DNA of 64,000 nt from Christiangramia fulva (GTDB lineage: Bacteria; Bacteroidota; Bacteroidia; Flavobacteriales; Flavobacteriaceae): positions 3,348,001-3,412,000 of the forward strand of contig NZ_CP028136.1 of the NCBI RefSeq assembly GCF_003024155.1, in the 5' to 3' direction. The translations under genes were made by a program, and so were the position numbers. A model generated the notes under the pieces. It was given only the letters and a program-made list of their open reading frames with translations. It searched no databases and was not told the DNA's origin. This document shows positions 16,100 through 33,596 of this stretch, one piece after another (position 1 is the stretch's first letter; every line of letters starts with the position of its first letter).

Positions 16100-16173
16100 G
16101 GCGAGGTAGCTCAGTTGGTTAGAGCGTCGGATTCATAACCCGGAGGTCCCGAGTTCAAATCTCGGTCTCGCTA
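16100..16173 (+). tRNA. tRNA-Met (anticodon CAT)
   Basis: 74 bases. D arm AGCTC-AGTTGGTTA-GAGC, anticodon CAT at 16134-16136 in the loop TTCATAA, T arm CCGAG-TTCAAAT-CTCGG, and acceptor stem GGCGAGG. CCA is not encoded. A CAT anticodon could also be the lysidine-modified tRNA-Ile; I favour elongator Met, without certainty. Its 3' end (16132-16174) is repeated at 28469-28511, marking it as the integration site of the island that follows. Confidence 0.9.
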
Positions 16174-16174
16174 C
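16132..16174 (+). repeat. attL: 43-bp direct repeat within the tRNA 3' end
   Basis: The 43 bases from the anticodon loop to one base past the tRNA are identical to 28469-28511, same orientation. Together they bracket 12.3 kb with mob genes and a tyrosine recombinase. The intact tRNA is on this side, so integration preserved gene function. Confidence 0.9.
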
Positions 16175-16184
16175 TTGTAAAATA

Positions 16185-16215
16185 AGGGGTTTCGATTTTT
16201 CGAAATCCCTTTTTT
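16185..16215 (+). terminator. Terminator supplied by the island for the tRNA transcript
   Basis: 11-bp stem with TTTT loop (AGGGGTTTCGA / TCGAAATCCCT) followed by T6. It differs from the analogous hairpin at 28522-28556, so the island seems to carry its own terminator next to its left end. Confidence 0.8.
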
Positions 16216-16224
16216 CTTTCCCAG

Positions 16225-16244
16225 GTACAACATAGGTACAACAT
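16225..16244 (+). repeat. Paired 9-bp direct repeat (likely integrase arm site), left
   Basis: GTACAACAT occurs twice with an 11-base period (16225-16233, 16236-16244). The same pair, in the same orientation, is found at 28345-28364 just upstream of the integrase start. One helical turn spacing near both island ends suggests recombinase arm binding sites; this is inference. Confidence 0.6.
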
Positions 16245-16377
16245 TTTAAAAAATGAACCTATTTCTTATAAAATTATCTCATATACCTTTAATTGATTAC
16301 AATTCATAACTGAAAAAATTAAATAGCTAATTTTGACCTTTTTTGTTTCCTAGCCCTAGGGAAGTTTGTGCCTGAAA

Positions 16378-16680
16378 TCAGAATATAAGAAGGTATGACA
16401 CAAGAGCACAATTTATTATTATTGAAATTATGAAAACTATCACCGCCCATTTCGGATATATCTTTGCATCCTCCATTAAATTCTCCATTTTTCGATGAAA
16501 CTTTTCCAGATTTTTTCTGTTTTGCTCCATTTGATCTTCATGAGTTTTTAGGAATGCTTCTAATTTGGATACATCAATTTCTATTTTTTGTTGCTGTAGC
16601 TTTTCCATTTTTTTTACCAACTGTTCATACCGGTTGATCTCTTCGATCATCAGTGTCATTAGTTCTTCTACTTTTGCCAT
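16378..16680 (-). CDS. Small coiled-coil membrane protein of the mob operon
   Basis: 100 residues. Long amphipathic, coiled-coil N-terminal part (EEINRYEQLVKKMEKLQQQK and onward) and one C-terminal membrane helix (WAVIVFIISIIINCALVSYLLIF). It follows the relaxase gene by 12 bases on the same strand, so it is probably the last gene of the mobilization operon. I recall similar small proteins beside Bacteroidota relaxase genes; role unknown, possibly anchoring the relaxosome at the membrane. Confidence 0.7.
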   Translation of the reverse strand: MAKVEELMTLMIEEINRYEQLVKKMEKLQQQKIEIDVSKLEAFLKTHEDQMEQNRKNLEKFHRKMENLMEDAKIYPKWAVIVFIISIIINCALVSYLLIF

Positions 16681-16692
16681 TTTTTTATGATT

Positions 16693-17559
16693 TTACATTC
16701 CTAAATCCATCCCTTTTGATATTGTTTTTTTGACAACCTCTTTGGCTATTTTGAGTGGGAGATTCCCAGCAGCATCCAATCCCTTCCCAATCATTTTTGC
16801 CGCCAATTGTTTTCCGATCTCTTCATACCGTTGCTGGTTTTTATCCAGTTGCTTTGCAATGTTGCCCATGCTCATGCTCCTGTGAATTTCACTTCCTTTT
16901 AAATTGTATTTATCAAATTCAAAACGAAATCCTTGCAGCTTCTCTGCTTTATTGATACAAGGGATCACTTTAACACCATTGTAGCGCATAGCCTCTTGGT
17001 ATCTTTCGAAGGTGTTAGGTCGAAAATTTTTTAAAGCAATATCATGTCTTCTTTTGATCTCTGCGCGGATATCTTTCAAATTAATTAGCTTCTCCATTTG
17101 TACCTCTTTTACTGTCTCCAGTTTATGTTCCTGTGCAACCTTTTCAGCCATCTGCTGACTACGCTTTCCAATAAAACTATCGTTATAGGCCTGCCCCTGG
17201 TAATTGATTCGGTTTACATATAAATGAATATGCTTATGCTCCTTATCTTTGTGAATAAAGGCTATGGACTGACGATCTCCCAGGTTCATCTTCTCCACAA
17301 AAGATTTACAGATTTCCTTTAGTTGTTTGTTACTAAGTTTTTGACCATCTTCGATAGTAGGACTCAAGACAAAGGAGAGAGTATTTTTCTGACAGTTTTC
17401 ATTTAGATCCTGTATGGCTTGAAACTCTTTTGTTATTTCTTTAGGGGTTTCCCCAATGAGTTCCTGTTTAAAAACTACCTGAGCTTCTTTTTCCTGGTTC
17501 CATCCATAGGTCATGGAGGCCCGGGTGTGGCTAATGGATTTTCCTTTTCCAATCATCAT
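16693..17559 (-). CDS. Relaxase / mobilization nuclease
   Basis: 288 residues. It begins MMIGKGKSISHTRASMTYGWNQ and has the metal-binding triad H108-x-H110-x-H112 in HKHIHLYVNRI, the motif III of MobA/VirD2-type relaxases. These enzymes nick oriT and stay covalently linked through a tyrosine; Y18 in MTYGW is a candidate. The helical C-terminal tail (to residue 288) has no primase or helicase signature, so this is a minimal mobilizing relaxase that would need the conjugation machinery of another element. 4-base overlap with mobC upstream. Confidence 0.88.
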   Translation of the reverse strand: MMIGKGKSISHTRASMTYGWNQEKEAQVVFKQELIGETPKEITKEFQAIQDLNENCQKNTLSFVLSPTIEDGQKLSNKQLKEICKSFVEKMNLGDRQSIAFIHKDKEHKHIHLYVNRINYQGQAYNDSFIGKRSQQMAEKVAQEHKLETVKEVQMEKLINLKDIRAEIKRRHDIALKNFRPNTFERYQEAMRYNGVKVIPCINKAEKLQGFRFEFDKYNLKGSEIHRSMSMGNIAKQLDKNQQRYEEIGKQLAAKMIGKGLDAAGNLPLKIAKEVVKKTISKGMDLGM

Positions 17560-18041
17560 ACAATTTTTTGAAGGTGAGACTTGATATCTTCCGCCAGTTT
17601 ATAAACCGCACCTGAAAGACGAGGATCTTTCTTACGGAACATATTTCCTATCCACTTGAAGTTGTTATGGAATTGCAGCAGGGTTTTATAGATAGCAATT
17701 TGATCATCAGAAAGCCTTTCGGTTATTTCTAATCCGAAAGCACTTCTTCTGCAATATTCGCTAAGGGTTAATCCGCTCTTTTTAGCTTTGATCAGCAGTA
17801 ATTTCTTTTCAAAAGATGAGCATCGAAATTTAACGAGATCACCTTTCCCCCTAAACCTCTTTTTTTCATTGCGACCATCGGGAGCAATCAAGATTGTGTC
17901 CACAGACACACATCTTGAATTACTGAATTCAGACGATAAATTATCTCCTGAATCCTCAGGATCTTTGGGTGGACTTTCAGTTTCTTCAAAAGGAATTTTA
18001 AGCTTGAAAAGATTAAGCTGGGAATCGTTTTTTTTCTTCAT
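17556..18041 (-). CDS. MobC-like relaxosome accessory protein
   Basis: 161 residues. The first 65 residues are a low-complexity charged linker; then KFRCSSFEKKLLLIKAKKSGLTLSEYCRRSAFG fits the ribbon-helix-helix of MobC-type proteins, followed by helices (LLQFHNNFKWIGNMFRKKD). Such proteins bind oriT and help the relaxase open the strands. First gene of the mob operon; its start faces the structured intergenic region, which is where the oriT is expected. Confidence 0.8.
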   Translation of the reverse strand: MKKKNDSQLNLFKLKIPFEETESPPKDPEDSGDNLSSEFSNSRCVSVDTILIAPDGRNEKKRFRGKGDLVKFRCSSFEKKLLLIKAKKSGLTLSEYCRRSAFGLEITERLSDDQIAIYKTLLQFHNNFKWIGNMFRKKDPRLSGAVYKLAEDIKSHLQKIV

Positions 18042-18082
18042 GGCGATTGATTTTAAAACACGAAAATCAAATCAACCGAAAG

Positions 18083-18190
18083 AGGCTTGAGGTTTATTCC
18101 GAAGGAACTTAAACCTTCAAGCTTCTTTTACCATGTCATGGTGAAAACGGGCCGAAATTTTTAAGTCGAAGACTTCTTAAATTTCGAGCC
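18083..18190. other. Candidate oriT with three inverted repeats
   Basis: Next to mobC lie three hairpin-forming repeats in about 108 bases: GCTTGAGGTTTA with TAAACCTTCAAGC (one-base bulge, 18085-18122); ACCATG-T-CATGGT at 18130-18142, extendable by weak A/T pairs; and CGAAATTT / AAATTTCG (18153-18160, 18179-18186) enclosing AAGTC / GACTT. Position and structure fit an origin of transfer; the nick site cannot be assigned by eye. Confidence 0.55.
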
Positions 18191-18265
18191 TGTTTGAGTA
18201 ACCTTTTTTTTGAAAAGTCACTTTCTAAAAGTACAAAATTTAATAAATCCGATTCCTCTATGGAT

Positions 18266-18339
18266 GACTCTTAATTGTTAATTTTTGAAAAGCATTTTTT
18301 GAATCATTATTCCTAAAAATACCTTTTCAATTGAGAGTC
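18266..18339. repeat. Imperfect inverted repeat
   Basis: GACTCTTAATTG (18266-18277) pairs with CAATTGAGAGTC (18328-18339) at 11 of 12 positions, and the bases inside (GAAAAGCATTTTT / AAAAATACCTTTTC) also partly pair. Possibly a terminator-like or recombination structure; nothing else is visible in this A/T-rich stretch. Confidence 0.4.
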
Positions 18340-18456
18340 CGTAAAAATGAATAGCCGGAAGGTTAATTGGGAAAATATACTTTGAACCTATCGAAATAAT
18401 AATTATTTTTTCATTTAATTGTTTAAATGTTTATTTATTAATGGTATGTAGTCCCT

Positions 18457-18480
18457 TATTGGGACACCGGTGTCCCAATA
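18457..18480. promoter_or_regulatory. 24-bp perfect palindrome with GGGACACC half-sites
   Basis: A perfect 24-bp palindrome centred on ACC/GGT (arms TATTGGGACACC). The half-site GGGACACC recurs at 18515-18522. Looks like a dimeric repressor operator or replication-protein site between mobC and the cargo genes. Confidence 0.55.
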
Positions 18481-18603
18481 CAGGACAAGTAATCTTATAG
18501 GTTGTACCCGATACGGGACACCTCTTTCTCATTTAGGACCACAAATAAACTTCCTGTTTTCACCCTTACTTTTTTAATAATTCGTTCACTTAAAAAATCG
18601 ACT

Positions 18604-18672
18604 ATGCAAACTGAATTTAAAAGAGAAGAGCTTTTTTACTTAGCCTGGGAGAAACCAATAACATGGTTTTGA
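18604..18672 (+). pseudogene. Fragment resembling the N terminus of a small HTH protein
   Basis: A 22-codon frame beginning MQTEFKREELFYLAWEKP and stopping at TGA. It resembles from memory the REELYELVWSKP opening of a DNA-binding protein common on Bacteroidota mobile elements, and the rest is missing. Could be chance; no homologous continuation was found in the next bases. Confidence 0.35.
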
Positions 18673-18727
18673 AAAAATTACCTGCTCTTAACGCAACCAT
18701 TTGTATTTTTTTACATCTTAATTAAAA

Positions 18728-19510
18728 ATGATCATAGTGAAAAGAATATATATCATCCTGACTTTTTTGGCTGCAGTGAGTTGTAGTACAAATGAGGAGA
18801 TTAGCGTGGTAGATACTGACATTAATTTTATGCCCGTAGAGGTATATAATAACTGGAACCTCTCAGAAATTCCTTCACTAAAACTATTACTCACAACATT
18901 AAAGAACTACCCCTGTAGCAATTACAGCATCATCACAGAACAAACCATAGATAACGATGAACTGATTATAAGGTTCCAGGAAATCTATGCTCCGGGCAAC
19001 TGTTTGACATCAATAGGTCCTGCAAGATCATATATAGATTTACCCGAGAACATACATGAAGTAATCTTCATAAATGGAAATGAAACTGATAAATATTCTA
19101 TAGAAGTTGGCCAGGAGAAGATTTTTATTCAGCCTGTTGAAAACAGCTTTACACATACTTTATACAATAACACTTTCCGATATCCCGAAAATTCTTTTGC
19201 TTATGTATGTGGTACAAATACCGATAATACCGAGGTTTATGAAGAATTTTTAAATATTCTGAAACAGAATGAAAATTTTACGGAGTTTGAATTTCAAGGT
19301 GAAGGTAGAATTCCTTACCCAGATAGTTCTAGTGGGCACTGGGTTAATCATCCATCAAAATTTTTTAAATACTCAGATTATGACGAATATAAAAATATAA
19401 AAGGCTTACTTGAAAATTTTACATCAGAGAATATTGAGGAAAATTCAGGTGTTACAATTTCCATCTATGGCTGGGATAATATAAGTTTCCATAGTTGGCT
19501 TAATAACTAA
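18728..19510 (+). CDS. Uncharacterised lipoprotein, 260 aa
   Basis: Signal peptide IYIILTFLAAVSC with a lipobox Cys at about residue 20, so an outer or inner membrane lipoprotein. The mature part is acidic and Asn-rich, with Cys in KNYPCSNYS, GNCLTSIGPARSY and FAYVCGTN. I recognise no family. Isolated gene within the island; low G+C and unlike the core genes in composition. Confidence 0.7.
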   Translation: MIIVKRIYIILTFLAAVSCSTNEEISVVDTDINFMPVEVYNNWNLSEIPSLKLLLTTLKNYPCSNYSIITEQTIDNDELIIRFQEIYAPGNCLTSIGPARSYIDLPENIHEVIFINGNETDKYSIEVGQEKIFIQPVENSFTHTLYNNTFRYPENSFAYVCGTNTDNTEVYEEFLNILKQNENFTEFEFQGEGRIPYPDSSSGHWVNHPSKFFKYSDYDEYKNIKGLLENFTSENIEENSGVTISIYGWDNISFHSWLNN

Positions 19511-19653
19511 AAGACTATTCCCAATCATAGCAATTGCGGGTTTAGAAAAAAGAACTAATTTAATTTTTATAATAGGCCAAAGCGTTGAGACGACAAATCA
19601 GCTTCCCTACTCCATGGCATGTGTCATAAAATGATGACGTTACCACCATTATT

Positions 19654-20298
19654 ATGAAAAATTTTTTGATAATAGCATTAATTTTAATTCAAACTATAGC
19701 CTTTGGTCAAAATGCTCAAAAATGGAGGCTTGGAATTGAGACATCGATCGAAAATTTGTCCATTCCGCGAAATAATTATGGACAAAAGTATATTAGGACA
19801 GATGAAAGTATAAATGGATATTCTGTCAAATTTGATCAAAAAAATTATAGTATTGGATTACGAGCTAAATATTCTCTTAAAGAAAAATTAGACCTATCAT
19901 CAGGAATTTCATATTCAAATAAAGATTTCTCAGGAAGATATAACTGCGCTACCTGTGACTTTATAGGAATTTTCCCTGAGACAACTATAGAACAAAGGTT
20001 TTTAACTATTCCATTATCAATTGAATACCTATTTTTAAAAGGAAAATTTAAACCTGCTTTGGAAGGAGGATTCGAGAATAACTTTAAATTAAAAAATGAT
20101 ATAAAGAAAATTAGTAATAACTATTTTTTAGAAGCTTATTTAGGAGTTTCAATTAATTATGCTTTAATGGAGAAATGGATTTTAAATGTAGGTTATAATT
20201 ATCAAAAATCTATTTCGCATCTCTATAAAACAGATGAAAGTGAGCTAAGAACAAATAGTTTCTTTTTACGAATTAGTTATTTATTAAAATCACGGTGA
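19654..20298 (+). CDS. Outer membrane beta-barrel protein
   Basis: 214 residues. Signal peptide MKNFLIIALILIQTIAFGQ, then alternating aromatic/hydrophobic strands (KNYSIGLRAKYSLKEKLDLSSGISYSN, FLTIPLSIEYLF, EAYLGVSINYALMEKWILNVGYNY) and a terminal strand NSFFLRISYLLKSR, all typical of small OmpA/porin-like barrels in Bacteroidota. Ligand and function unknown. Probably a cargo gene of the island. Confidence 0.75.
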   Translation: MKNFLIIALILIQTIAFGQNAQKWRLGIETSIENLSIPRNNYGQKYIRTDESINGYSVKFDQKNYSIGLRAKYSLKEKLDLSSGISYSNKDFSGRYNCATCDFIGIFPETTIEQRFLTIPLSIEYLFLKGKFKPALEGGFENNFKLKNDIKKISNNYFLEAYLGVSINYALMEKWILNVGYNYQKSISHLYKTDESELRTNSFFLRISYLLKSR

Positions 20299-20526
20299 GT
20301 ACCAGGGAAAACCGCAATGGCGCTTTCATAACTCCGCGGCACTTATAGTTAACCGCATGTCGAAGTGCATTTTATAAGAAGAATCCCAATTCAATAAATT
20401 AACGCAACCAACTATAATTTTAGTTCTTCCATAGACCTAAAGAATCCAAATAAATGGCTTTCCTTAATAAAAGGATATTTAAAGCAACTATTTATAAGAA
20501 ATAGCATCTACTTTAAAAAAATAATC

Positions 20527-20868
20527 ATGAAAAAAATCTTTTTATTTATTTTTTTCGGACTGATACTTCTTAATTTTAGTTGTTCAAAGGACGATGAAGG
20601 ATCAAATGAATATATTTCTGTTTTATATAATCAAACCTATTGCAGTGATCCATGGGGTTATTCCAATGATAAACTTGAATTAGCAAATAAAGTAAGAGAT
20701 TATTTTATTACAGAAAATATTGAAGTATTTGATGTAAAAGTAGACAATAAAGGAACTGCACAAGACTGCAATGCTTGTATGTGTTTAAGCGGGGTAAGGA
20801 TTTTACTTAAAGTAAAAAACGGTGATTTAATCCCTTTTAAGGAACATGGATTTAAAGAATATAACTGA
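20527..20868 (+). CDS. Small lipoprotein, 113 aa
   Basis: Signal peptide MKKIFLFIFFGLILLNFSC with lipobox Cys, followed by SKDDEGSNE. The mature part has a cluster of cysteines (YCSDPWGY, QDCNACMCLSGVRILLKV), which could form disulfides or bind metal. No family recognised. It ends about 70 bases before the broken integrase copy on the other strand. Confidence 0.65.
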   Translation: MKKIFLFIFFGLILLNFSCSKDDEGSNEYISVLYNQTYCSDPWGYSNDKLELANKVRDYFITENIEVFDVKVDNKGTAQDCNACMCLSGVRILLKVKNGDLIPFKEHGFKEYN

Positions 20869-20939
20869 TTAAGTAAAATAGTCAATCTTAAAATTTCCGT
20901 CTTAATTCAAGCTGTTGCTCCCATGTAAAATGAAAAAAA

Positions 20940-21340
20940 TTAAAAATCCAAAACATGATTCAATGCCTTATCCGTCTCTTGATTCATAAAATTAGATTGG
21001 TACATCATAGTCGTTGTAACAGAAGAATGCCTATATAATTTCTGTAACATCTGGATAGGAATTTTATCTCCTGAAATATTTCCAAAGCTGTACCGCGCAA
21101 TTTGCATAGTCAGCTTTTTATCAATTTCTAGTTGTTTAGCTATCCGGCATAATTGCCGGTTGAAATTTCGGTGATGGTTTTAATTCTAATCCTAACAAGA
21201 AAGTCATCTGTAAGATCAATTCCTATTAATTCAGAAAAAACGAGTAAAGTTTCTTTACATTTAATTCTTTTATAACTTTCAAGGATTTCATGTGCTTTTG
21301 ATGGAATCTGTAATGATACTAATTTGTCATTCTTTTTCAT
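20940..21340 (-). pseudogene. Degraded C-terminal copy of the island integrase
   Basis: On the minus strand this stretch matches 27096 to about 27500 closely: MKKNDKLVSLQIP at the upstream end and ALNHVLDF before the stop. One G is missing in the codons equal to RNFNRQLG (TTTCGGTG instead of TTTCGGGTG), so the frame breaks after residue 59 or so. The catalytic Arg region and everything upstream are absent. It is a relic of an earlier integrase gene, not a functional recombinase. Confidence 0.85.
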
Positions 21341-21516
21341 TCTATAGTAAAAAGGCTAAACCGAATTTTAACAAAAGCTTTGTATAGATATATAGATTTT
21401 TTTATATTTAAAGACATTGATTATTTTAAAGAGGAAGGTTGCAGGTAACAGCGGAACTTTCCTCTTTTATATTAATCTTTCAGGAAGAAAACATCTCTCC
21501 AAGTCCCACTTTTATT

Positions 21517-22167
21517 ATGGAATATGAAAATAAATCAGGTAAATATTACAACAAAAGCCGGCCGGAAATGCAGGCGTTACTTCCAAAAAATGCGAGCAAA
21601 ATTTTAGATGTAGGCTGTGGTGAAGCCAGAATGGCTGAGGAATTAAAGAAAAAATTTAGCATTGAAGTTTGGGGAATTGAATTTATGGAATCAGAGGCCA
21701 GTATCGCAGCTCAGAAATTAGATTATGTAATTAATGATACCATTGAAAATAGTATGAAAAAACTTCCTGATAATTATTTTGATACAATATTTTTTAATGA
21801 TGTTCTAGAGCATTTAGCAAACCCTAATGAAGTTTTAAAAAATATCAGATCAAAATTGACTAAAGATGGGAAGATAATTAGTTCTATCCCTAATGTACGA
21901 TACCATAAAGTCTTTCAACAATATCTCTTTAAAAAAAATTGGAAGTATGAACGTGCTGGAGTTATGGATTTTACTCATCTACGTTTTTTCACCTCTAAAT
22001 CTATAAAAAAATTATTCGAAGATGCGGGTTATGAAATCCAGTATCATAAAGGAATTAATAAGACTAAATCTTTAATGCCTTATATTTATAATATATTCCT
22101 CTTTTCGACTGCAATAGATATGTTCTATGTTCAATTCGCAACCATCGCAAGGAAAGCGACAAAGTAA
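21517..22167 (+). CDS. Class I SAM-dependent methyltransferase
   Basis: 216 residues from the ATG at 21517 (MEYENKSGKYYNKSRPEMQ), preferred over an upstream TTG-type start at 21439 without homology signs. Motif I is ILDVGCGEARM, motif post-I VWGIEF, motif II around DTIFFNDVLEHLANP, then ISSIPNVRY. The pattern VLEHLANPNEVLKNI is common in methyltransferases linked to polysaccharide or natural product genes. No partner genes are nearby, so the substrate is unknown. A hairpin terminator follows. Confidence 0.87.
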   Translation: MEYENKSGKYYNKSRPEMQALLPKNASKILDVGCGEARMAEELKKKFSIEVWGIEFMESEASIAAQKLDYVINDTIENSMKKLPDNYFDTIFFNDVLEHLANPNEVLKNIRSKLTKDGKIISSIPNVRYHKVFQQYLFKKNWKYERAGVMDFTHLRFFTSKSIKKLFEDAGYEIQYHKGINKTKSLMPYIYNIFLFSTAIDMFYVQFATIARKATK

Positions 22168-22189
22168 AATCTAAAACTTCTTCATATAA

Positions 22190-22218
22190 AAGATTCCCGC
22201 CTAAATTGCGGGAATCTT
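22190..22218. terminator. Perfect 11-bp hairpin, likely terminator
   Basis: AAGATTCCCGC / GCGGGAATCTT with a 7-base loop, 22 bases after the methyltransferase stop. No strong T run follows on either strand, so termination efficiency is uncertain. Confidence 0.55.
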
Positions 22219-22444
22219 AAAAACCAAACACCACACCTAATTCAAATTTAAACTAAAATATTAGGTAAATGTGAGTGTTTGCAAAAGGTAATTAGTTTAT
22301 TCCAAAATTAAAATAAAATTACCTTATTAATTGACTGTAAGGAATTAATTTAGATTCTTTGGTAAAGTATTATATCTTTCCACTTGCCAGCAGAAAGCAA
22401 TTGTACCTCCGGATCCAAATCGATGAAATCATTTTCAGTCACTT

Positions 22445-22789
22445 CTATTTCTTGTTTTTATTTCTAACAACTTTTTCAGAATATTGAAGGAAATTTTTAT
22501 GTGCGTATCCACAATTCCCTTTTTGACATAATAAATAAAAAGCCCCTATGGAATCAAGGGGTTTTATCTTTGTTCCTTTCAGAATCATCTCTAATTTTCT
22601 TCCGAAATTATTAGGGGTACTTTTTAAATGAAAATCTTTTTTGGCAATAAAATAAATATCATCAGGAAAAGACGTCAAAGATAAAGATTCAGGTTCTCGA
22701 GGTAATGGATCCTGTTCGGTGTAATTAATCTCTTGTGAATTAGCAAACCCCAAAAAAAGGGAAAAAATAATAAATAAATAGTACTTCAT
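22445..22789 (-). CDS. Secreted SH3-like protein, 114 aa
   Basis: Signal peptide MKYYLFIIFSLFLGFANSQ. The rest resembles a bacterial SH3 domain: DIYFIAKKDFHLKSTPNNFGRKLEMILKG, then KIKPLDSIGAFYLLCQKGNCGYAHKNFLQYSEK, where CGYAHKNFL matches the typical GWVHKKYL end. Such domains bind peptidoglycan or peptides in the periplasm. It lies 10 bases downstream of the hypothetical gene ending at 22800, possibly one unit. Confidence 0.65.
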   Translation of the reverse strand: MKYYLFIIFSLFLGFANSQEINYTEQDPLPREPESLSLTSFPDDIYFIAKKDFHLKSTPNNFGRKLEMILKGTKIKPLDSIGAFYLLCQKGNCGYAHKNFLQYSEKVVRNKNKK

Positions 22790-22799
22790 TTTACTAAAA

Positions 22800-23156
22800 T
22801 TAATCTTCTATAAATTTTTTATGATCCTTTAACCACTTGCGGATCTTTGATCTTTTCTTTTTAGAAATAGATTTGGCGTTTTTTATTTCATATTGACCGT
22901 TTCCTCGATCGGAAACAACAAACTCCTTGTTGATCGAGGTTATAGGAATACCTAAAAATTTTATTTCCTCTTCAGCAAGAATTTTATATTTCTTGTTCTG
23001 AGGTTTTGAAATCGCCTTTAATCTCACTATTCTTTTTTTATGAAAGAGGTCACAAGGACTATGCCGGGGCCTCAGGTAAAATTTTAATAAAAACAAAAAA
23101 ATAGGAAGTTTTGGAACGATATTTTCTTGATCATGTAAAACGCTGGCATGAATCAA
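22800..23156 (-). CDS. Hypothetical basic protein, 118 aa (start uncertain)
   Basis: A minus-strand frame whose second half looks protein-like (KILAEEEIKFLGIPITSINKEFVVSDRGNGQYEI, then a Lys-rich tail KKKRSKIRKWLKDHKKF). The first 40 residues are less convincing, and the start overlaps the divergent gene at 23148 by 9 bases, so the true start may lie downstream. No family recognised. Confidence 0.4.
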   Translation of the reverse strand: MIHASVLHDQENIVPKLPIFLFLLKFYLRPRHSPCDLFHKKRIVRLKAISKPQNKKYKILAEEEIKFLGIPITSINKEFVVSDRGNGQYEIKNAKSISKKKRSKIRKWLKDHKKFIED

Positions 23157-23627
23157 TTAAAAGAAGTTTTAATATTTCAGCTTAATTATTTGAATACATT
23201 AGAAAAAGGGATGCAAGAATCTGTACCTTCTTTGTTGAAACAGGTTACCAACCAAAATTTGCGTTCTATTATTGAAGAAGTACGGGAGAATTCTAAAGAC
23301 CATCAAAATGAAATTCAAGATTTAATCCAATCCTTGGGTTCGGACGTTGCATCTTATTCTAACTCTATTCTAGAATGTTTACTTCAAGAAGCTCATCATA
23401 AATGTAGAAAGGAGAATAGCTCATTAAAAAACATTCATATATTTAACTTTTTTTTCTATGCTATTTCTCATAAAATTGCAGCCTTTGATATAGCAAAAGA
23501 ACAATCCAGAGACCTTAATATCAATGACGCCTCCATTGCACTAATGAACATTCTTGATGACGCAGTTTTAATCCAGGAAGAATTAAAACAGGTAAGAGCT
23601 ACTAATCTTCATTGGATAATAAATTAA
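23148..23627 (+). CDS. YciF/DUF892-like ferritin-like helical protein
   Basis: 159 residues, all helical: LKEVLIFQLNYLNTLEKGMQE, LRSIIEEVRENSKDHQNEIQDLIQSLG, a hydrophobic helix HIFNFFFYAISHKIAAFDIAKEQ and a last helix with DDAVLIQEELKQV. Spacing and the E...E/H pattern fit the YciE/YciF (DUF892) four-helix bundles, which are stress-induced in enterobacteria. The family assignment is from pattern, without an alignment. It begins a plus-strand series with the exporter and TerC genes. Confidence 0.6.
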   Translation: MNQLKEVLIFQLNYLNTLEKGMQESVPSLLKQVTNQNLRSIIEEVRENSKDHQNEIQDLIQSLGSDVASYSNSILECLLQEAHHKCRKENSSLKNIHIFNFFFYAISHKIAAFDIAKEQSRDLNINDASIALMNILDDAVLIQEELKQVRATNLHWIIN

Positions 23628-23667
23628 TTATAATGAGGTTATGGAATTCCTCTAAAATAATATTAGC

Positions 23668-24132
23668 ATGAGAAACGACATCCTTTTAGAGGAAGCCTTT
23701 ATAGCTATCTTATGGAGCCTATCTCCTCTAGGAGAGGCCAAAGTTGGTATTCCTATGGCTTTATTACGTGGCATTGATCCAATTTTCACCTTGATTTCAT
23801 GTTTCATCGCCAATGCCCTTGTTTTTCCTCTAATGATGTTTTTTTTAGATAAGATAAATAAACCATTATTCAAGTGGCGACCTTATAAAAGGTCTGCAAT
23901 TTTTGTTGCCAAGCGAGCAAAAAAAGGGGCTGGAAAAGGAATTAAAAAATATGGTTTTATTGGCCTGATTTTTTTCGTAATGCTTCCTATTCCTGGTACT
24001 GGGGTATATGCGGGCACAATTGCTTCCTATTTATTTGGAATACACAGACAAAAAGCCTTTTTAGCTAATACTATAGGAATATTCATATCTTGTGTTTTAG
24101 TTTGGTCCTCTGCCCTTTTCTTGAACAATTAA
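23668..24132 (+). CDS. Small multidrug export-type membrane protein (COG2426-like)
   Basis: 154 residues, four or five membrane helices. Diagnostic stretch SLSPLGEAKVGIPMALLRGIDP near the start and MLPIPGTGVYAGTIASYLFGI in the middle, both characteristic of the COG2426/Sm_multidrug_ex family. Transported compound is not known; the family name itself rests on little experiment. It is 26 bases upstream of the terC-like gene, same strand. Confidence 0.82.
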   Translation: MRNDILLEEAFIAILWSLSPLGEAKVGIPMALLRGIDPIFTLISCFIANALVFPLMMFFLDKINKPLFKWRPYKRSAIFVAKRAKKGAGKGIKKYGFIGLIFFVMLPIPGTGVYAGTIASYLFGIHRQKAFLANTIGIFISCVLVWSSALFLNN

Positions 24133-24157
24133 TTTATAAATCTTTATAGAACTTTCT

Positions 24158-24871
24158 ATGGAAATATTTCTACAACCTGATACTTGGATCGCTTTACTCA
24201 CACTCACATTTCTTGAAATAGTTCTAGGTATCGACAATATAATTTTTATTTCCCTTGTTGCTGGAAAAGTCCCCAAAGAAAATCAGAAGAAAGCGCGTTT
24301 GGGAGGCTTATCGATTGCTCTTGTAATGAGAATTTTACTTCTTTTAAGTATCACGTGGATTATCGGTTTGACTAAACCAGTATTAACTCTTATAAATTTT
24401 GAACTGAGTTGGCGAGATATAATTTTAATATCAGGTGGAATATTTTTATTGATTAAAAGTACTTTAGAAATTCATCATAAGGTGGAAGCAAAAGATCAGG
24501 AAAATTCTACTAAGATAGGTTCTTCTCTGTCCTTTTCTTCAGCGATTATTCAAATTGTTCTTTTAGATATTGTTTTTTCCTTTGATTCCATACTTACAGC
24601 CGTGGGGCTCACAGATAAACTTATATTGATGATTATCGCAGTTATAATAGCAATTATTGTAATGATGATATTTGCCAAACCAGTCGGAGAATTTGTAAAC
24701 CAACATCCTACCATTCAAATATTAGCGTTGTCATTTCTAATTTTAATAGGAGTTATGCTAATCGTTGAAGGTGCTCACTACCATGTCCCTAAGGGATATA
24801 TCTATTTTGCCGTATTTTTTTCATTGGCCATTGAAATGTTGAATATGAGATATAGAAAGAAAAACACATGA
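24158..24871 (+). CDS. TerC family integral membrane protein
   Basis: 237 residues, seven predicted membrane helices. Signature FLEIVLGIDNIIFISLVAGKVP with the paired acidic residues in the membrane and the second-repeat counterpart LLDIVFSFDSILTAVGL; GMLIVEGAHYHVPKGYIYFAVFFSLAIEMLN-type end. TerC-like proteins are implicated in tellurite resistance and Mn/metal handling at the membrane. Cargo of the mobilizable island; its stop shares ATGA with a 26-codon frame. Confidence 0.9.
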   Translation: MEIFLQPDTWIALLTLTFLEIVLGIDNIIFISLVAGKVPKENQKKARLGGLSIALVMRILLLLSITWIIGLTKPVLTLINFELSWRDIILISGGIFLLIKSTLEIHHKVEAKDQENSTKIGSSLSFSSAIIQIVLLDIVFSFDSILTAVGLTDKLILMIIAVIIAIIVMMIFAKPVGEFVNQHPTIQILALSFLILIGVMLIVEGAHYHVPKGYIYFAVFFSLAIEMLNMRYRKKNT

Positions 24872-24948
24872 CTTTGAAAGCTTTATTAAAACGAAATTTT
24901 GAGAGAAATTCAGAAGATGTGACAGTTACGTTGTTTAATTATTCTTAA
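24868..24948 (+). CDS. Possible 26-residue peptide coupled to terC
   Basis: An ATG overlaps the TGA of the TerC gene (ATGA). The frame MTLKALLKRNFERNSEDVTV... ends at TAA 24946-24948, four bases before the next gene. It is amphipathic and basic at the start. Only coupling and position support it; it may be a spacer that keeps ribosomes moving to the next gene. Confidence 0.3.
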   Translation: MTLKALLKRNFERNSEDVTVTLFNYS

Positions 24949-24951
24949 AGC

Positions 24952-25257
24952 ATGATTAAATTTTTTAATCGCCTCTGGCTTATATTCATCGCTCTAATTG
25001 TTCTAATTTCCTCAAGATATTTTTACATTGGATTAGATCCAAATCTGAAGGAACTATACGAATCTTTTTACCTCAACTTTACAAGACGAATTGCAATTTT
25101 CGGAATATTAGGAATATTTTTTCTATTTCTTTTATTACTAATAAATTATTCGTTCTTAAATAAAAAATTGCAATCTCTAAAATTCCTGGCCGTAACAGGA
25201 GTAATCATAATATTTCTTTCCTCCTTTGTTGGAACTGCTTTATTATTTCTATCTTAA
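24952..25257 (+). CDS. Small membrane protein, 101 aa
   Basis: Three hydrophobic helices (LWLIFIALIVLISSRYFYIGL, IAIFGILGIFFLFLLLLINYSFL, LKFLAVTGVIIIFLSSFVGTALLFL). No family recognised. It follows TerC on the same strand and ends 1 base before the stop of the convergent GldJ-like gene, so no room for a terminator remains between them. Confidence 0.6.
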   Translation: MIKFFNRLWLIFIALIVLISSRYFYIGLDPNLKELYESFYLNFTRRIAIFGILGIFFLFLLLLINYSFLNKKLQSLKFLAVTGVIIIFLSSFVGTALLFLS

Positions 25258-25258
25258 G

Positions 25259-26842
25259 CTAATTGGACACAGTTTTAAGGTTCTTTTTTGGACCTAAGTA
25301 GCTCATTGCATTTCTAAAACCTATATAATCTGCACCTAAATCCTGATGGTAAAACCGTCGTTGAGAAGGATCTAACCAATAAGCTCTGTCTTTCCAACTT
25401 CCCCCTTTTACAACCCTTACTTCATTATTGATTAAAGTAGTTCTGTCTAGCACATTTCGAGTGCTTTTAATTTGCTTATCATATAAAGGCGAATCATACA
25501 TCCTCTTTGAAGGACTGTTTATTTTTTGGAAATCCTGATAAAATCGAGTGGATCTTTTATCACCGCTTAAGTAATTCCTATTATCAGCACGAGAATAATT
25601 AATGCGCATATAGGTATCGGAAGAATCTACATTCTTTTTTAAAATTTCACCCGGAAGCTGCATAGCAAAGATTTCTCCTGTAATTAATGTATCATAGGGT
25701 ATTTGCTCATTACTAACTATTTCATAGGAGCCATTTTTCTGAACTTTCTTTTTATATACATTTCCCCTAAAGTAATTAAAATCATTGTAGTTATCCATGA
25801 TGGTTGGCCTATAGACATCTGCTACCCATTCGGCAACATTTCCAGCCATATTATAAAGACCAAAGGCATTTGGAGAAAATGATTTCACCGGAGCTGTAAT
25901 TGCTGCTTCATCTTCATTCCAGCCGGCAATACCGCCATAATCACCATCACCTTGTTTAAAATTGGCCAAATGGCTAGGTCCGTTCCCAGTGAAAAGGTTA
26001 TCTGTAGTCCTGCCATTCCAGGGATACATTTTTCTTCCCTTAAATGAATTGTATTCCCTAATTCCAACGAGACTCTTTGCTGCATATTCCCATTCTGCTT
26101 CTGTGGGTAGCCGGTACTGAGGGTATAATACACCATCGGTTAACGTAGCATAATCAACTTCTTCACCCTGCAGGCTTTTAATCGCTTTAGAAGGTGCATT
26201 AATATAAGTATCAGTATCAAAACTGAATCCTTTGGCATAATCCATTCGCTGTTTATGTTCTAGATAACCTTTCCTGTCCAGCATCAATTCGTTCAATCTA
26301 TCAGTCCTCCATCGACTAAATTCTACTGCCTGAATCCAACTAACACCTACAACAGGATAATCGGAATATGCTGGATGTCTTAAATAATTATTTACAAGAT
26401 GCTCAGCATAGCCAAGCCTATTTCTCCAGACTAAAGTGTCAGGTAACGCACTTTTATAAATATTTTTATATCGAGGATTTTCAGGGGGGAAAACTTTTTT
26501 TAACCAATCAAGATATTCTAGATACATCCGGTTTGTTACCTCCGTTTCATCCATATAAAAAGATCGAACGGTTTGTTGTGTAGGGCCATTATTCCATTCG
26601 TGAAGAGGATCATCTTGCACCCTTCCCATAGTAAAGGTGCCTCCCTCAATATAAACCATTCCTGGCGGCGTTTCCAACGGATCATAATTTTCATTATTAT
26701 ATTGAAAACCTCCATCTTCATCATTAATTTTCCATCCGGTTGCCCTTGAGTCACTTTCGCGTCCACTTAGGGTATTACAGCTAAAAAAAAGAATTGACGA
26801 TGCGGACAAAAAAATTTTCAAAAACAATCTTGACTTAACCAT
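25259..26842 (-). CDS. GldJ/GldK-like SUMF1-domain lipoprotein (paralogue on the island)
   Basis: 527 residues. Lipoprotein signal (ASSILFFSC), then ATGWKINDEDGGFQYNN, which matches the start of the mature GldJ family. The formylglycine-generating enzyme-like (FGE-sulfatase) domain follows: PPGMVYIEGGTFTMG, DETEVTNRMYLEYLDWL, YRLPTEAEWEYAAKSL, AFGLYNMAGNVAEWVADVY and VVKGGSWKDRAYWLDPSQRR. GldJ and GldK are essential parts of the gliding / type IX secretion apparatus; the FGE cysteines are not visible. No other gld gene is near, so this is probably a second copy on mobile DNA. Confidence 0.83.
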   Translation of the reverse strand: MVKSRLFLKIFLSASSILFFSCNTLSGRESDSRATGWKINDEDGGFQYNNENYDPLETPPGMVYIEGGTFTMGRVQDDPLHEWNNGPTQQTVRSFYMDETEVTNRMYLEYLDWLKKVFPPENPRYKNIYKSALPDTLVWRNRLGYAEHLVNNYLRHPAYSDYPVVGVSWIQAVEFSRWRTDRLNELMLDRKGYLEHKQRMDYAKGFSFDTDTYINAPSKAIKSLQGEEVDYATLTDGVLYPQYRLPTEAEWEYAAKSLVGIREYNSFKGRKMYPWNGRTTDNLFTGNGPSHLANFKQGDGDYGGIAGWNEDEAAITAPVKSFSPNAFGLYNMAGNVAEWVADVYRPTIMDNYNDFNYFRGNVYKKKVQKNGSYEIVSNEQIPYDTLITGEIFAMQLPGEILKKNVDSSDTYMRINYSRADNRNYLSGDKRSTRFYQDFQKINSPSKRMYDSPLYDKQIKSTRNVLDRTTLINNEVRVVKGGSWKDRAYWLDPSQRRFYHQDLGADYIGFRNAMSYLGPKKNLKTVSN

Positions 26843-27095
26843 ACCTTTTTATTATAAGAAAAAGGAATTTTCGAGAATTGATGTTAATTCTTTTTCAAAT
26901 AAAATTTAAAAATTGTAAAAGAAGCGTAGATTGAAGGACAAAAAAGATGAATTTAATTTTATTTATCTGGTTGGAATCCTCCTCATTGTTTGTTTTCAAA
27001 GATTAGGAGGTTGGTGTAATATTATTTCCCTAGCATAAAAAAAATGAAATTTTGACGCCTTTAGTTGCTCCTCTTCATAATTCTGGTTTAATAAT

Positions 27096-28301
27096 TTAGA
27101 AGTTCAAAACACTATTTAAAGCCTTATCCGTTTCCTGGGTCATAAAATTTGATTGGTACATCATAGTCGTTGTAACAGAAGAATGGCGATACAATTTTTG
27201 AAGCATCTGGATAGGAATTTTATCTCCTGAAATATTTCCAAAGCTGTGCCGCGCAATATGCATAGTCAGCTTTTTATCAATTTCTAGTTGTTTAGCTATT
27301 CGGCCCAATTGCCGGTTGAAATTTCGGGTGATGGTTTTAATTCTAATCCTAACAAGAATGTCATCTGTAAGATCAACTCCTCTTAATTCAGGAAAAACAA
27401 GTTCACTTTCTTCGCTTCTAACCTTTTTATAGGATTCCAGAATCTCCTGTGCTTTGATTGGAATTTGAAGGGAGACTAATTTGTCATTCTTCTTCATACG
27501 GTAATACAGCCTTCCATCTTTTAAATCAGTCCATTTCAACTGGATAATGTCAGTAATACGAACCCCAGCAAAATAAAAGCTCAGCAACCAAACGTTAAGT
27601 GTATGCCGATTAGCCTCATTTAAACCTGTGGCATTCTCTAATTTTCTAAGTTCCTCAACTGTTAGTCCTATTTTTTTAGCTTCAGGAATTTTGATTTGAT
27701 ATTTCCCCTTTCCGAATGGATAATCATTTCGATCCGCCTTATTCGCTGATAATGCTAGATTATATATAGCTCTAATACAGATCATAAAATTGACCACAGT
27801 TCTTTTTGCCCTATGCTTTTTGAATTGAAGATAAGAAGCAAAACTCTTTAGCAATGGAACATCGATCTCATGAAATTCAATTCCGTTCCCGGCAAAATTT
27901 AAAAATTGCTCTACTCTGTTCTTCTCGGTTTTATATTGATTTATCTTTTTCCTGGATTTTATATTATTTAAATAAATAGCTGCCATGCTTTTAAAGTCAC
28001 TATTATTTTCCCTCCTGATAGCCTCCTTAAGCTTTCCTACCGATAATTTTCTTTTAATTGATTCATTCTCAAGAAGCTTTTCATTTGCTTCATGTAATTT
28101 GCTTAAAATGAGATGGTTTAACCTCAATGCATTTGGATGAGATTTTTTTACACGAGACCTCCTTTCATCCCAGTACAACTTTTCAATATATTGACCAGTA
28201 TATAAGTAGGTCGTGCGCCTATTCCGGGTAATTCGAATTGCGATTGGAAATTCACCTGATTTGTTCGATTTTTTACGGAGAGTAGCACTTATAGAAGACA
28301 T
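27096..28301 (-). CDS. Tyrosine recombinase / integrase of the island
   Basis: 401 residues from the ATG at 28301 (MSSISATLRKKSNKSGEFPI); an earlier in-frame ATG at 28364 would translate the GTACAACAT repeats and is rejected. N-terminal arm-binding domain (to about 90), SAM-like core-binding domain (100-190), then the catalytic domain with R248 (FAGVRITDI), H348-x-x-R351 (HIARHSF), H373 (LYRHSS) and the nucleophile Y382. The gene reads inward from the right island end, 167 bases from attR, as expected for a gene that integrates the element at tRNA-Met. Confidence 0.93.
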   Translation of the reverse strand: MSSISATLRKKSNKSGEFPIAIRITRNRRTTYLYTGQYIEKLYWDERRSRVKKSHPNALRLNHLILSKLHEANEKLLENESIKRKLSVGKLKEAIRRENNSDFKSMAAIYLNNIKSRKKINQYKTEKNRVEQFLNFAGNGIEFHEIDVPLLKSFASYLQFKKHRAKRTVVNFMICIRAIYNLALSANKADRNDYPFGKGKYQIKIPEAKKIGLTVEELRKLENATGLNEANRHTLNVWLLSFYFAGVRITDIIQLKWTDLKDGRLYYRMKKNDKLVSLQIPIKAQEILESYKKVRSEESELVFPELRGVDLTDDILVRIRIKTITRNFNRQLGRIAKQLEIDKKLTMHIARHSFGNISGDKIPIQMLQKLYRHSSVTTTMMYQSNFMTQETDKALNSVLNF

Positions 28302-28344
28302 ATATTTTTTATAAATTATCCTCTCTAAATTTACCAAAATTTGG

Positions 28345-28364
28345 GTACAACATAGGTACAACAT
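28345..28364 (+). repeat. Paired 9-bp direct repeat (likely integrase arm site), right
   Basis: GTACAACAT at 28345-28353 and 28356-28364, identical to the pair at the left end of the island. Lies between the integrase start and attR, and may also affect integrase transcription. Confidence 0.6.
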
Positions 28365-28468
28365 TTGGCCATTTTGCTTGATATTTAATGAATGTAAGTA
28401 AAATTAAATTTGATTCAATTAATTGATTTTGTGTTAATTACACTGTTTTTATAACACTCTTTTGATTT

Positions 28469-28511
28469 TTCATAACCCGGAGGTCCCGAGTTCAAATCTC
28501 GGTCTCGCTAC
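28469..28511 (+). repeat. attR: 43-bp copy of the tRNA-Met 3' end
   Basis: Identical to 16132-16174. Only the 3' part of a tRNA is present (no D arm, no acceptor 5' strand), so this is not a gene but the right junction of the island. Confidence 0.9.
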
Positions 28512-28521
28512 AAGTAAAATC

Positions 28522-28556
28522 AAGGCTTTCGAGAAATCGAGAGCCTTTTGTTTTTT
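28522..28556 (+). terminator. Hairpin next to attR
   Basis: 11-bp stem with GAAA tetraloop (AAGGCTTTCGA / TCGAGAGCCTT, one G-T pair) and a T-rich tail. It takes the same position relative to the tRNA end as 16185-16215 and may be the tRNA terminator of the neighbouring element or of the original chromosome. Confidence 0.7.
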
Positions 28557-28562
28557 CATCTA

Positions 28563-28582
28563 GTACAGAATAAGTACAGAAT
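28563..28582 (+). repeat. Paired 9-bp repeat outside the island (GTACAGAAT)
   Basis: GTACAGAAT at 28563-28571 and 28574-28582, again with 11-base period and 52 bases past the tRNA repeat. Related to, but different from, GTACAACAT. It suggests the left end of a second element of the same integrase type. Confidence 0.5.
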
Positions 28583-29112
28583 CTCATTTTTTTTAATAAA
28601 TAAATAAGAGCCATATAGAAAATCTCCGTTTGATATCAATTGAAACGGAATTTTATATTTATTCCGGAAATTAACTCTAGAAAGTAACCATTAATTTTCC
28701 ATCGTTAATAAGATTCAAAATTTTAGTAATTAAGATCCAATCTTGAATCACTGCCCATTACTTCCCTGGAATAGCTCAGCATGCCTGAAACCTGATAGCT
28801 ATGAAATACATCCTCTTCCCTATCGTAAAAAGTTCTTATATATATCCCTTAGAGATGTAGCTTTAAAAAATTCCTAAAAGTAAAGCAGTGAAGAAATGCG
28901 AAACGTTAGATTCTTGAAATAATCACACAAAATAAAAAATCAGGGTGCAAACATAGCCTATAACAATGAATTACACCCATTAATTAGAGTGAAAGAGCTT
29001 TTTAAAGGAAGGGTGAATTACATGTAATTGGAGCTATTATTTTAAGGCTATTAGGATAATTGTCTAAAAGGAGTCATCATTTAAAGGAATGCTATAAAGC
29101 ATAGTAACTCAT
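28583..29112. other. Gene-free A/T-rich stretch
   Basis: 530 bases without a credible frame on either strand. One short inverted repeat, TCCGTTT / AAACGGA, lies near 28630-28650. It ends at the hsdR stop. Probably non-coding junction DNA of a mobile element. Confidence 0.5.
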
Positions 29113-32100: not shown

Positions 32101-32253
32101 CCGGTACCTTGTCAATAGAAATTCCCGAAGATCACTTTCAATGAGCACTTCATCTTCCTTTCGTGAGATAGTGCCTCCTAATTTATGCTTATAATCTTCT
32201 TGTTCCAGCTGGTTGGCAAAAACGCTTTCCAGTTGTGCTTCGGTAAATTTCAT
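29113..32253 (-). CDS. hsdR: Type I restriction enzyme, R subunit
   Basis: 1046 residues, typical size. N-terminal PD-(D/E)xK nuclease (PDGILYINGIPVVVFEFKTA), then the SF2 translocase: Walker A GATGSGKSFTMLFLTRLL, motif II CISDEAHRSQ, motif III FTGTPID, motif VI QTISRVNRKFQGKNKG, and a long helical C-terminal domain that binds the methylase core. It cuts unmethylated DNA after ATP-driven translocation. Last gene of a five-gene minus-strand operon; 4-base overlap with the AlbA-type gene upstream. Confidence 0.96.
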   Translation of the reverse strand: MKFTEAQLESVFANQLEQEDYKHKLGGTISRKEDEVLIESDLREFLLTRYRKNGITKNEIDSIILRLKTLPASDLYESNKEFMQMLSDGFSLKREDRSQKDIWIYLIDYSEDNQNTYKFVNQLEITGTQKRIPDGILYINGIPVVVFEFKTAIQENTTIYDAYIQLTVRYQRDIPELFKYNAFCVISDGVNTKAGSFFAPYEFFYAWRRIAGLAKEVDGIDSMFTLIQGMLHQNRLRDIIKNFIYLPDSSKKDEKIVCRYPQYYAARALFENIQKVQKPNGNGKGGTYFGATGSGKSFTMLFLTRLLMRSDHFESPTIILITDRTDLDDQLTGQFTNAKAFIGDDAIVSAESRADLRKRIRGRESGGVFLTTIHKFTEDTELLTNRSNVICISDEAHRSQTNLDQKIKITEKGVQKTFGFAKYLHDSLPNATFVGFTGTPIDATLDVFGKVVDEYTMTESVIDEITVRIVYEGRAAKVALENRELKKIEEYYRVAEEEGANEYQVEESKKQSANINAILSDPDRLQAIAEDFVNHYEKRLEEGATVKGKAIFVCSSREIAYELYKNIIELRPEWAKIRKAEEGADLTEKDWKQLKPIERIKMIMTRGKDDPKEMYDLLGTKEYRKELDRQFKNEKSNFKIAIVVDMWLTGFDVPFLDSIYIDKPIQQHNLIQTISRVNRKFQGKNKGLVVDYIGIKKQMNLALAKYNKGERQNFEDIEKSLKIVRDHLDLLARIFHKFDSTDYFHGDPLSQLNNLNQAVEYVQQTKELETRFMDLVKRLKAAYDICAGSEKLTQQERDYTHFYLAVKSIVFKLTRGNAPDTAQMNAKVREMIKNALASEGVEEIFKMGDQTNSQQDIFDEDYLAKIDKIKLPNTKIKLLQHLLARAIGEIKKVNKVKGVDFSKKMEGLVSRYNERKGDVLRGEVYEEMAEQLTDLIWQVQKEFSAGEKLGIDFEEKAFYDILRELCVKYDFQYPENKLIELSKAIKDLVDEQAKFPDWSKRNDIKSALKVGLILLLDEHGYPPVERDEVYEEIFEQAENFKKNRTV

Positions 32254-33593: not shown

Positions 33594-33596
33594 TTT

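Follow-up and report, generated by a model that had tools for sequence, protein, structure and literature searches.

How does a 12.3-kb segment of a flavobacterial chromosome come to lie between two identical copies of a tRNA 3′ end, with mobilization genes beside one copy and a recombinase gene beside the other? The segment is part of the window analysed here, the 64 kb from base 3348001 to base 3412000 of the single-contig, 4.38-Mb genome of Christiangramia fulva. The most probable answer, to which we give a probability of about 0.88, is that site-specific recombination placed the segment, as an integrative and mobilizable element (IME), in the 3′ part of a tRNA-Met gene. This reading is carried by the borders of the segment, the anatomy of its arms and cores, the vacant and occupied sites of congeners, and the intact open reading frames (ORFs) of an integrase and a relaxase. 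In the following, E1 denotes the type of the 12.3-kb unit and E2 the type of the ends of a neighbouring element that resembles an integrative and conjugative element (ICE). The genus comparison set consists of 24 genomes, C. fulva included.

Borders of the unit at tRNA-Met

The following features define the ends of the unit (window coordinates, strand):

16100..16174, +, tRNA-Met (CAT), the target gene (ARAGORN)
16132..16174, +, left attachment (att) core, 43 bp, anticodon loop to tRNA 3′ end (exact repeat)
16182..16214, +, terminator-like hairpin behind the tRNA, apparently element-borne, between core and arms (fold z = -4.55)
16224..16244, +, left pair of arm repeats, GGTACAACATA/GGTACAACAT, 49 bp past the core (pattern scan)
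27096..28301, -, tyrosine recombinase (integrase), listed as an ORF to 28364 (Pfam Arm-DNA-bind_5, Phage_int_SAM_5, Phage_integrase)
28344..28364, +, right pair of arm repeats, 105 bp ahead of the core (pattern scan)
28469..28511, +, right att core, shared with the next element as its left core (exact repeat)
28518..28583, +, left end of the next, ICE-like element, with its own hairpin and the arm pair AGTACAGAATA/AGTACAGAAT (fold z = -3.62)

The tRNA-Met(cat) is the sole tRNA that ARAGORN finds in the window. The initial annotation had described an island with integrase and relaxase at its 3′ end, bounded by an exact 43-bp repeat in the same orientation. The repeat finder, which gives a core spacing of 12,337 bp from 16132 to 28469, and a search of the whole genome with up to three mismatches both confirm this repeat. 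The 43-mer is present exactly three times in the genome, always on the plus strand: at 16132 and 28469 of the window and at chromosome position 3527703, outside the window and 151,234 bp to the right of the second core. A reversed-pattern control gave no matches genome-wide. With exact cores and an arm pair at either end, the proposed borders are right for the unit as it stands. The core begins at the anticodon loop, as do the cores beside related integrases, and the G+C content of E1 is 32.6% vs 39.2% in the left flank.

What does the site look like in related genomes? A tRNA-Met site was classed as vacant when a hairpin without arms lies within 130 bp behind the tRNA. Comparison with close genomes, which the initial annotation had proposed as a check, finds such an uninterrupted site in 10 of the 24 genomes of the genus. 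An E2-type left end is present in 11, and two (C. fulva and G017) have an E1-type left end; the contig of the remaining genome, G009, stops at tRNA-Met, so neither class was assigned. Many congeners hold additional copies of the 43-bp sequence, and in at least seven an extra copy is found on the same contig and strand, 70–261 kb downstream. The flank beyond the far core of the occupied G011 site shares 12 matches of mechanically called ORFs with the flank behind the tRNA of the vacant G016.

The arm repeats within each pair are spaced 11 bp apart. The pair GGTACAACATA GGTACAACAT occurs at both ends of the unit, on the right just upstream of the integrase gene, while the AGTACAGAATA AGTACAGAAT version stands behind the second core and again before the third. 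Across copies, left arms lie 47–50 bp after the core. Arm repeats precede 14 of the 16 second or third core copies examined, and in these 14 the nearest right pair is 104–106 bp before the core; five copies carry a third arm repeat, which places an outer pair at 116 with the inner pair also present. One of the two exceptions, G013r, has arms a single base off the search pattern. The count of 16 was made apart from L066, which ends at a contig end, and L073. The 11-bp spacing, the nearly fixed distances and the N-terminal arm-binding domain of the integrase are what is expected for arm-type integrase sites, and the repeats are probably binding sites of the integrase.

Both left ends also have a hairpin between core and arms. 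None of 200 shuffles folds as well as the hairpin at 16182–16214, and two of 200 do so for the hairpin behind the second core. The elements appear to bring their own terminator-like hairpin to the tRNA gene.

Integrase, arm classes and mobilization module

A tyrosine recombinase had been proposed beside the right repeat, and the ORF at 27096–28364 (minus strand) contains its three Pfam domains: arm-binding, core-binding and catalytic (PF17293, PF13102 and PF00589), the composition of arm-binding-domain tyrosine recombinases. The catalytic R, H-xx-R, H and Y segments of these enzymes are discernible in the alignment. The listed ORF starts inside an arm repeat. The true start is likely the internal methionine at 28301, because the resulting 401 amino acids are the length of six related integrases. 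PMC8138268 describes an IntCTnDOT subgroup of such enzymes.

Do arms and target evolve together? A tree of 23 integrases, made from matches with retrieved sequence, places 11 rows in one group with the resident E1 integrase (itself counted; support 85/95) and nine rows in an E2 clade (99/99). L090 falls outside both groups, and the distant L025 (24%) and L088 (27%) are further out. All 11 rows of the E1 group bear GTACAACATAGGTACAAC (a GTACAACA-type pair) at the integrase, and all nine of the E2 clade bear GTACAGAATA.GTACAGAA (a GTACAGAA-type pair); the arm scan, which covered these rows and L090 (L025 and L088 lay outside it), found no arm pair at the L090 integrase. The cores beside E1-type arms belong to several tRNA genes: tRNA-Met, a second CAT tRNA (CTCATAACCCGAAGG...), a tRNA-Leu (CTTAGGATCTAG...) and a tRNA with TTCAAAATCC. 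L082, a member of the E2 clade, is also located at the second CAT tRNA. These tRNA kinds were read by eye, except for tRNA-Leu(tag), which is an ARAGORN call. Arm class therefore tracks the integrase group, and the tRNA target varies within a group.

Two occupied genomes, G003 and G018 (L051 and L050), have a different tRNA-Met T-arm, GGGGGATCGTGCCCCCC instead of CCGAGTTCAAATCTCGG, apparently delivered by the inserted element. In G018 the ordinary T-arm is found in a core copy beside a host-type hairpin, on another contig. This pattern fits a strand exchange that takes place upstream of the T-arm, so that the 3′ half of the tRNA comes from the element, and it agrees with the anticodon-centred subsite that PMC4383910 gives for tRNA islands.

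The mobilization genes are found at the left end of the unit:

16378..16680, -, DUF6730 protein, MbpC-like, below the MbpC cut-off (Pfam 4.6e-22; NCBIfam MbpC 20.4 bits, cut-off 200)
16693..17559, -, relaxase with MobA/VirD2 domain, MbpB-like, below the MbpB cut-off (Pfam Relaxase 2.3e-29; NCBIfam MbpB 92.8 bits, cut-off 400)
17556..18041, -, MbpA relaxase accessory protein, NikA/MobC-like (NCBIfam MbpA 98.7 bits, cut-off 90; Pfam NikA-like 1.6e-17)
18078..18195, no strand, candidate origin of transfer (oriT): two long hairpins upstream of mbpA (fold of 18050-18199)

Two further proposals of the initial annotation, a MobC/relaxase pair and a structured intergenic region, agree with these matches and with the fold of the region upstream of mbpA (z = -6.28 on the plus strand and -5.03 on the minus strand). 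The two hairpins are a candidate oriT. By NCBIfam cut-offs MbpA alone qualifies, and the set resembles the MbpABC module without being classed as a member. The unit has the make-up of an IME, namely its own integrase, flanking att repeats and a relaxase gene between them; no type IV secretion or coupling-protein family was found among the 15 ORFs of the unit scanned with Pfam, a set made up of the larger listed ORFs. A literature search for mbpA, mbpB and mbpC gave nothing relevant among the best matches.

The same chromosome has a sister element of 18.1 kb at tRNA-Leu(tag), 1691267–1709460 (L131 and L132), with a 53-bp repeat and the same arms at both ends. Its mobilization module is 88% identical over 2.1 kb, including the stretch upstream of mbpA, and 18042–18547 of the window is 87% identical to it. 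Its cargo, judged by eye, is potassium-transport/uptake-like.

Other structured motifs are found in this region. A 51-bp double-hairpin motif inside mbpA (17867–17917) is present with 0–1 mismatches only in the two mobilization modules of this genome, and copies 86–93% alike were found at ten retrieved places in the genus, some directly behind a gene for a recombinase-like protein of ~400 amino acids (by eye) and some near helix-turn-helix-like genes. It is not supported as an oriT, since similar copies occur without a relaxase match nearby. A cluster at 18414–18527 with the palindrome GGGACACCGGTGTCCC recurs in the same genome at 514736 (79%) and 4311485 (77%), in both cases within an ORF that looks, by eye, similar to the ORF at 54666–55418 of the window.

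How might such an element move? The tyrosine integrase would insert it into the 3′ part of tRNA-Met, probably by binding the paired 11-bp-spaced arms (GTACAACAT pairs) on both sides of the element core, with strand exchange where the tRNA gene encodes the anticodon loop. Insertion would restore the 3′ half of the tRNA from the element, which would also add the hairpin behind it. After excision, the circle would use the conjugation machine of another element by means of MbpA, the MbpB-like relaxase, the MbpC-like protein and the hairpin oriT candidate. The obvious candidate for such a helper would be the neighbouring 151-kb ICE-like composite. Three circles are predicted: 12,337 bp for the unit, 151,234 bp for the neighbour and 163,571 bp for both.

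Tandem array, internal remnant and rival readings

Does the unit stand alone, and is it one element? With the third exact core to the right, the unit heads a tandem array that spans 163.6 kb or more and is otherwise ICE-like. The integrase/relaxase island and its exact borders in the initial annotation are upheld; the view of a single unit missed this larger array and also a truncated second integrase gene:

20934..21349, -, 3′ remnant of a second E1-type integrase gene, truncated and with a broken frame (DNA and tblastn matches)

At the DNA level this remnant is 89% identical to 27090–27327 and 80% identical to 27320–27506 of the resident integrase gene; at the protein level it matches the resident integrase in two tblastn pieces (92% and 75%). 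The presence of a truncated integrase gene inside the unit suggests that the 12.3-kb segment is probably a fusion of two older elements, a left part with the mobilization genes and a cargo part with the intact integrase, which the remnant separates. Two related elements would have integrated in tandem, and a deletion would then have taken out the att site between them together with the larger part of one integrase gene. The remnant would mark a second element that probably lost its integrase, the internal att site and its partner end in this way.

The order of elements at the site varies within the genus. In G013 an E2-type element comes first and an E1-type element second; C. fulva and G017 have the reverse order, with E1 first, as read across separate contigs in G017. 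The ICE-like part of the C. fulva array encodes a MobB relaxase above its cut-off, TraK-, TraM-, TraN- and MobC-like proteins below theirs, and a second MobB/MobC-like pair further right; its TraG P-loop protein falls inside the window. It also has an internal integrase gene at 3475984–3477315, an intact 443-amino-acid frame with arms ahead of its start. The core expected ~105 bp past these arms is absent from the region when scanned with up to 14 mismatches. Internal borders thus appear to have been lost twice, inside E1 and between two ICE-like parts.

Where the array ends on the right is less clear than on the left, because synteny is late past the third core. Genes that lie a few kb from the tRNA in vacant genomes are found at ~3551541–3559178 in C. 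fulva, ~190 kb from the tRNA. A third core that directly borders the host flank is not supported, as some 15–24 kb lie between it and the point where synteny resumes.

Two side observations concern the ICE-like part and its far end. Between the subunit genes of a type I restriction system at 29113–39979 of the window there are YobI/Tmn-like ATPase and Schlafen-AlbA genes. Behind the third core (L009, chromosome 3527745–3528180) there is an ORF that by eye is GIY-YIG-like. A partial duplicate of the tRNA 3′ end, the hairpin and the start of this ORF lies at 3528051, with only 27 bp of the core left.

Is the unit still an element that can move by itself? It has been considered that the unit is a decayed, immobile IME remnant and that only the ICE-like island moves, possibly taking the unit with it in cis when the first and third cores recombine. 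The truncated integrase gene inside the unit, the lack of a recognised excisionase, and the frequency of tandem decayed elements, as stated in the IME review PMC5704250, speak for this idea. Conversely, the right-hand integrase has an open frame with the catalytic segments visible, neither arm pair is damaged, and the outer cores do not differ from each other; we regard a decayed unit as possible, on balance unlikely. The remnant may also have arisen by segmental duplication, that is, as a local copy of the 3′ end of the resident integrase gene inside a single element. It is the closest relative of the resident gene found (92%/75% in two pieces vs a best value of 78% in other genomes). However, its homology begins right at the 3′ end of the integrase (20934 vs 27090), and homology with the E1-type integrases of G013 and G017 is limited in the same way, which fits distinct elements with nothing but the integrase gene in common; a local duplication is unlikely, and a fusion of two elements is preferred. 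It is hardly credible that the region is ordinary chromosome with a chance tRNA fragment. GldJ and TerC, which the unit also encodes, are matched in all or nearly all genus genomes, as a chromosomal segment would be, yet separate copies are found at 477523 (gldJ) and 827821 (TerC match), arms and an integrase mark the unit, and ten of the 24 genomes have no arms behind the tRNA. The vacant sites largely refute this explanation.

Several observations weigh against an intact, mobile IME with the anatomy described. The MbpB-like and MbpC-like proteins score under their curated cut-offs, and no Pfam or NCBIfam match names an excisionase in the 12.3 kb, with the small ORFs partly outside the scan. 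Support for the E1-type integrase group is modest. A core-like copy in G006, the second exception among the 16, is without a full arm pair; L073 (G005:C1:1819074), which matches the 3′ part of the tRNA over 39 bp at 97%, is distant from the tRNA and has no arms in 4 kb. The initial annotation had treated a 43-bp repeat elsewhere without mobile genes as contrary evidence; arms precede 14 of the 16 extra copies examined. G005 has one mixed arm pair, GTACAACATAGGTACAGAA. The E1 hairpin has look-alikes among host hairpins, namely those of G006 and G019, so its origin is less secure than that of the E2 hairpin. Finally, the C. fulva ORFs in the first 14.9 kb past the third core match none of the 12 flanks compared; synteny with G015 resumes after 14.9 kb, that with vacant genomes not before ~24 kb.

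Cargo and comparison with known systems

What does the unit carry? The remaining genes are mostly on the plus strand:

18728..19510, +, protein without a Pfam family, lipoprotein-like at its start by eye (ORF list, Pfam)
19654..20298, +, outer-membrane beta-barrel protein (Pfam OMP_b-brl 1.7e-08)
20527..20868, +, small protein without a Pfam family, lipoprotein-like at its start by eye (ORF list, Pfam)
21439..22167, +, S-adenosylmethionine (SAM)-dependent methyltransferase (Pfam Methyltransf_23 3.8e-24)
23148..23627, +, DUF892 protein (Pfam)
23668..24132, +, putative small multidrug export protein family (Pfam 5.2e-33)
24158..24871, +, TerC family membrane protein (Pfam 5.5e-47)
25259..26842, -, GldJ paralog (gliding lipoprotein family), cargo (TIGR03524)

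The five genes from the methyltransferase to GldJ belong to the right part of the unit. A defence-system scan of four cargo proteins gave no matches.

The GldJ paralog scores 714.2 bits against the equivalog cut-off of 458.2 bits and is 62% identical to the chromosomal GldJ. The idea that the island is chromosomal because it contains gldJ can be rejected, as this separate gene lies elsewhere in the genome. At E 1e-100 there are two GldJ matches in C. fulva and one in each of its 23 congeners, three of which have genomes 67–90% complete. No donor can be traced: the best listed match outside C. fulva is 61% among 397 family genomes, and the best segment is 58% among the best 80 named loci, with none closer among the matches listed. 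A literature search for mobile or island-borne gldJ found none by title or abstract start among the best matches.

How far has the island copy diverged? The gldJ tree has 65 rows; 64 of 69 chosen loci passed the ORF filter (L130, L152, L157, L254 and L256 were dropped; the G425 copies stand outside the tree). In it the GldJ of congener G003 is identical to that of Gramella sp. AN32, so the genus is probably Gramella (Christiangramia). Island GldJ is the only row flagged as long (2.35), and given the tool's warning its placement is uncertain. Of 247 columns that do not vary among 58 distinct other GldJs, it departs at 39, with a gap at two of these; in a leave-one-out comparison over these 58, no row departs at more than two. 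The frame is intact and the lipoprotein-type N terminus is retained (by eye). Two genomes of another genus, G100 and G319, have two adjacent gldJ genes (L253, L257, L255 and L258); the second pair is on a long shared branch (0.69), and these second copies depart at 12 and 15 columns. That second copies in G100, G319 and G425 share the mobile lineage of the island copy is not supported: in G100 and G319 the second copy adjoins the first and groups away from the island copy, whose placement carries the uncertainty given above.

The plainer reading of these departures is relaxed selection on a hitch-hiking gene, and the bolder one is an altered function. In a 2025 model, as outlined in PMC12635249, GldJ is part of the moving gliding track together with GldK and GldN. 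It is conceivable, as a long shot, that island GldJ is functional and neofunctionalised and would co-assemble with or replace chromosomal GldJ in the track, with altered gliding, type IX secretion or sensitivity to phages that exploit the machinery. If true, a core motility machine would be subject to modification by mobile DNA.

The cargo thus raises the question of whether mobile DNA can alter the gliding track. The site raises two others that can be tested. tRNA-Met is a hotspot of the genus and offers a natural series: vacant, one element, two in either order, and fused. Do arm-site and tRNA-core recognition evolve separately in these integrases, and do stacked elements become single mobile units by internal att loss?

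Which known systems does the unit resemble? Bacteroidetes IMEs in tRNA 3′ ends include NBU1 (tRNA-Leu), NBU2 (tRNA-Ser) and Tn6031 (tRNA-Pro), in the account of PMC5704250. They share with the unit a tyrosine integrase and a tRNA 3′ end as target, and NBU1 and NBU2 also have a relaxase. By description only, the unit differs in its tRNA-Met target, 43-bp core, Mbp-type mobilization genes, GldJ and TerC cargo, and position in an array. A 10K genomic island of Riemerella anatipestifer, whose excision to a circle is reported in PMC6764341, is likewise a small Flavobacteriales tRNA island with exact repeats (53 bp, tRNA-Arg) and a tyrosine integrase. In contrast to the unit it has another tRNA and other cargo, and the word relaxase is absent from the main text of that report. 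A literature search for a Gramella genomic island at tRNA-Met gave nothing relevant among the best matches.

In the Islander class, as set out in PMC4383910, a core that starts at the anticodon loop corresponds to subsite A, and a tRNA fragment marks the far end. There is no difference in principle from the unit, with an anticodon-centred crossover; the Islander table has 4 tandems of three or more beside 3919 islands. The array resembles the tandem accretion of ICEs, IMEs and cis-mobilizable elements (CIMEs) summarised in PMC5704250, in which elements with similar targets stack in one tRNA gene, move singly or together and commonly decay. It differs from the accretion described there in that two internal borders have apparently been lost and that the order of E1 and E2 varies, C. 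fulva (G000) and G017 against G013. As an IME that occupies a tRNA gene and forms part of an accretion array, the unit belongs to a known kind, and this IME itself is new. Four features are less usual: arm class is uncoupled from the tRNA target, internal borders appear to have been lost more than once, hairpins apparently come with the elements, and GldJ is altered.

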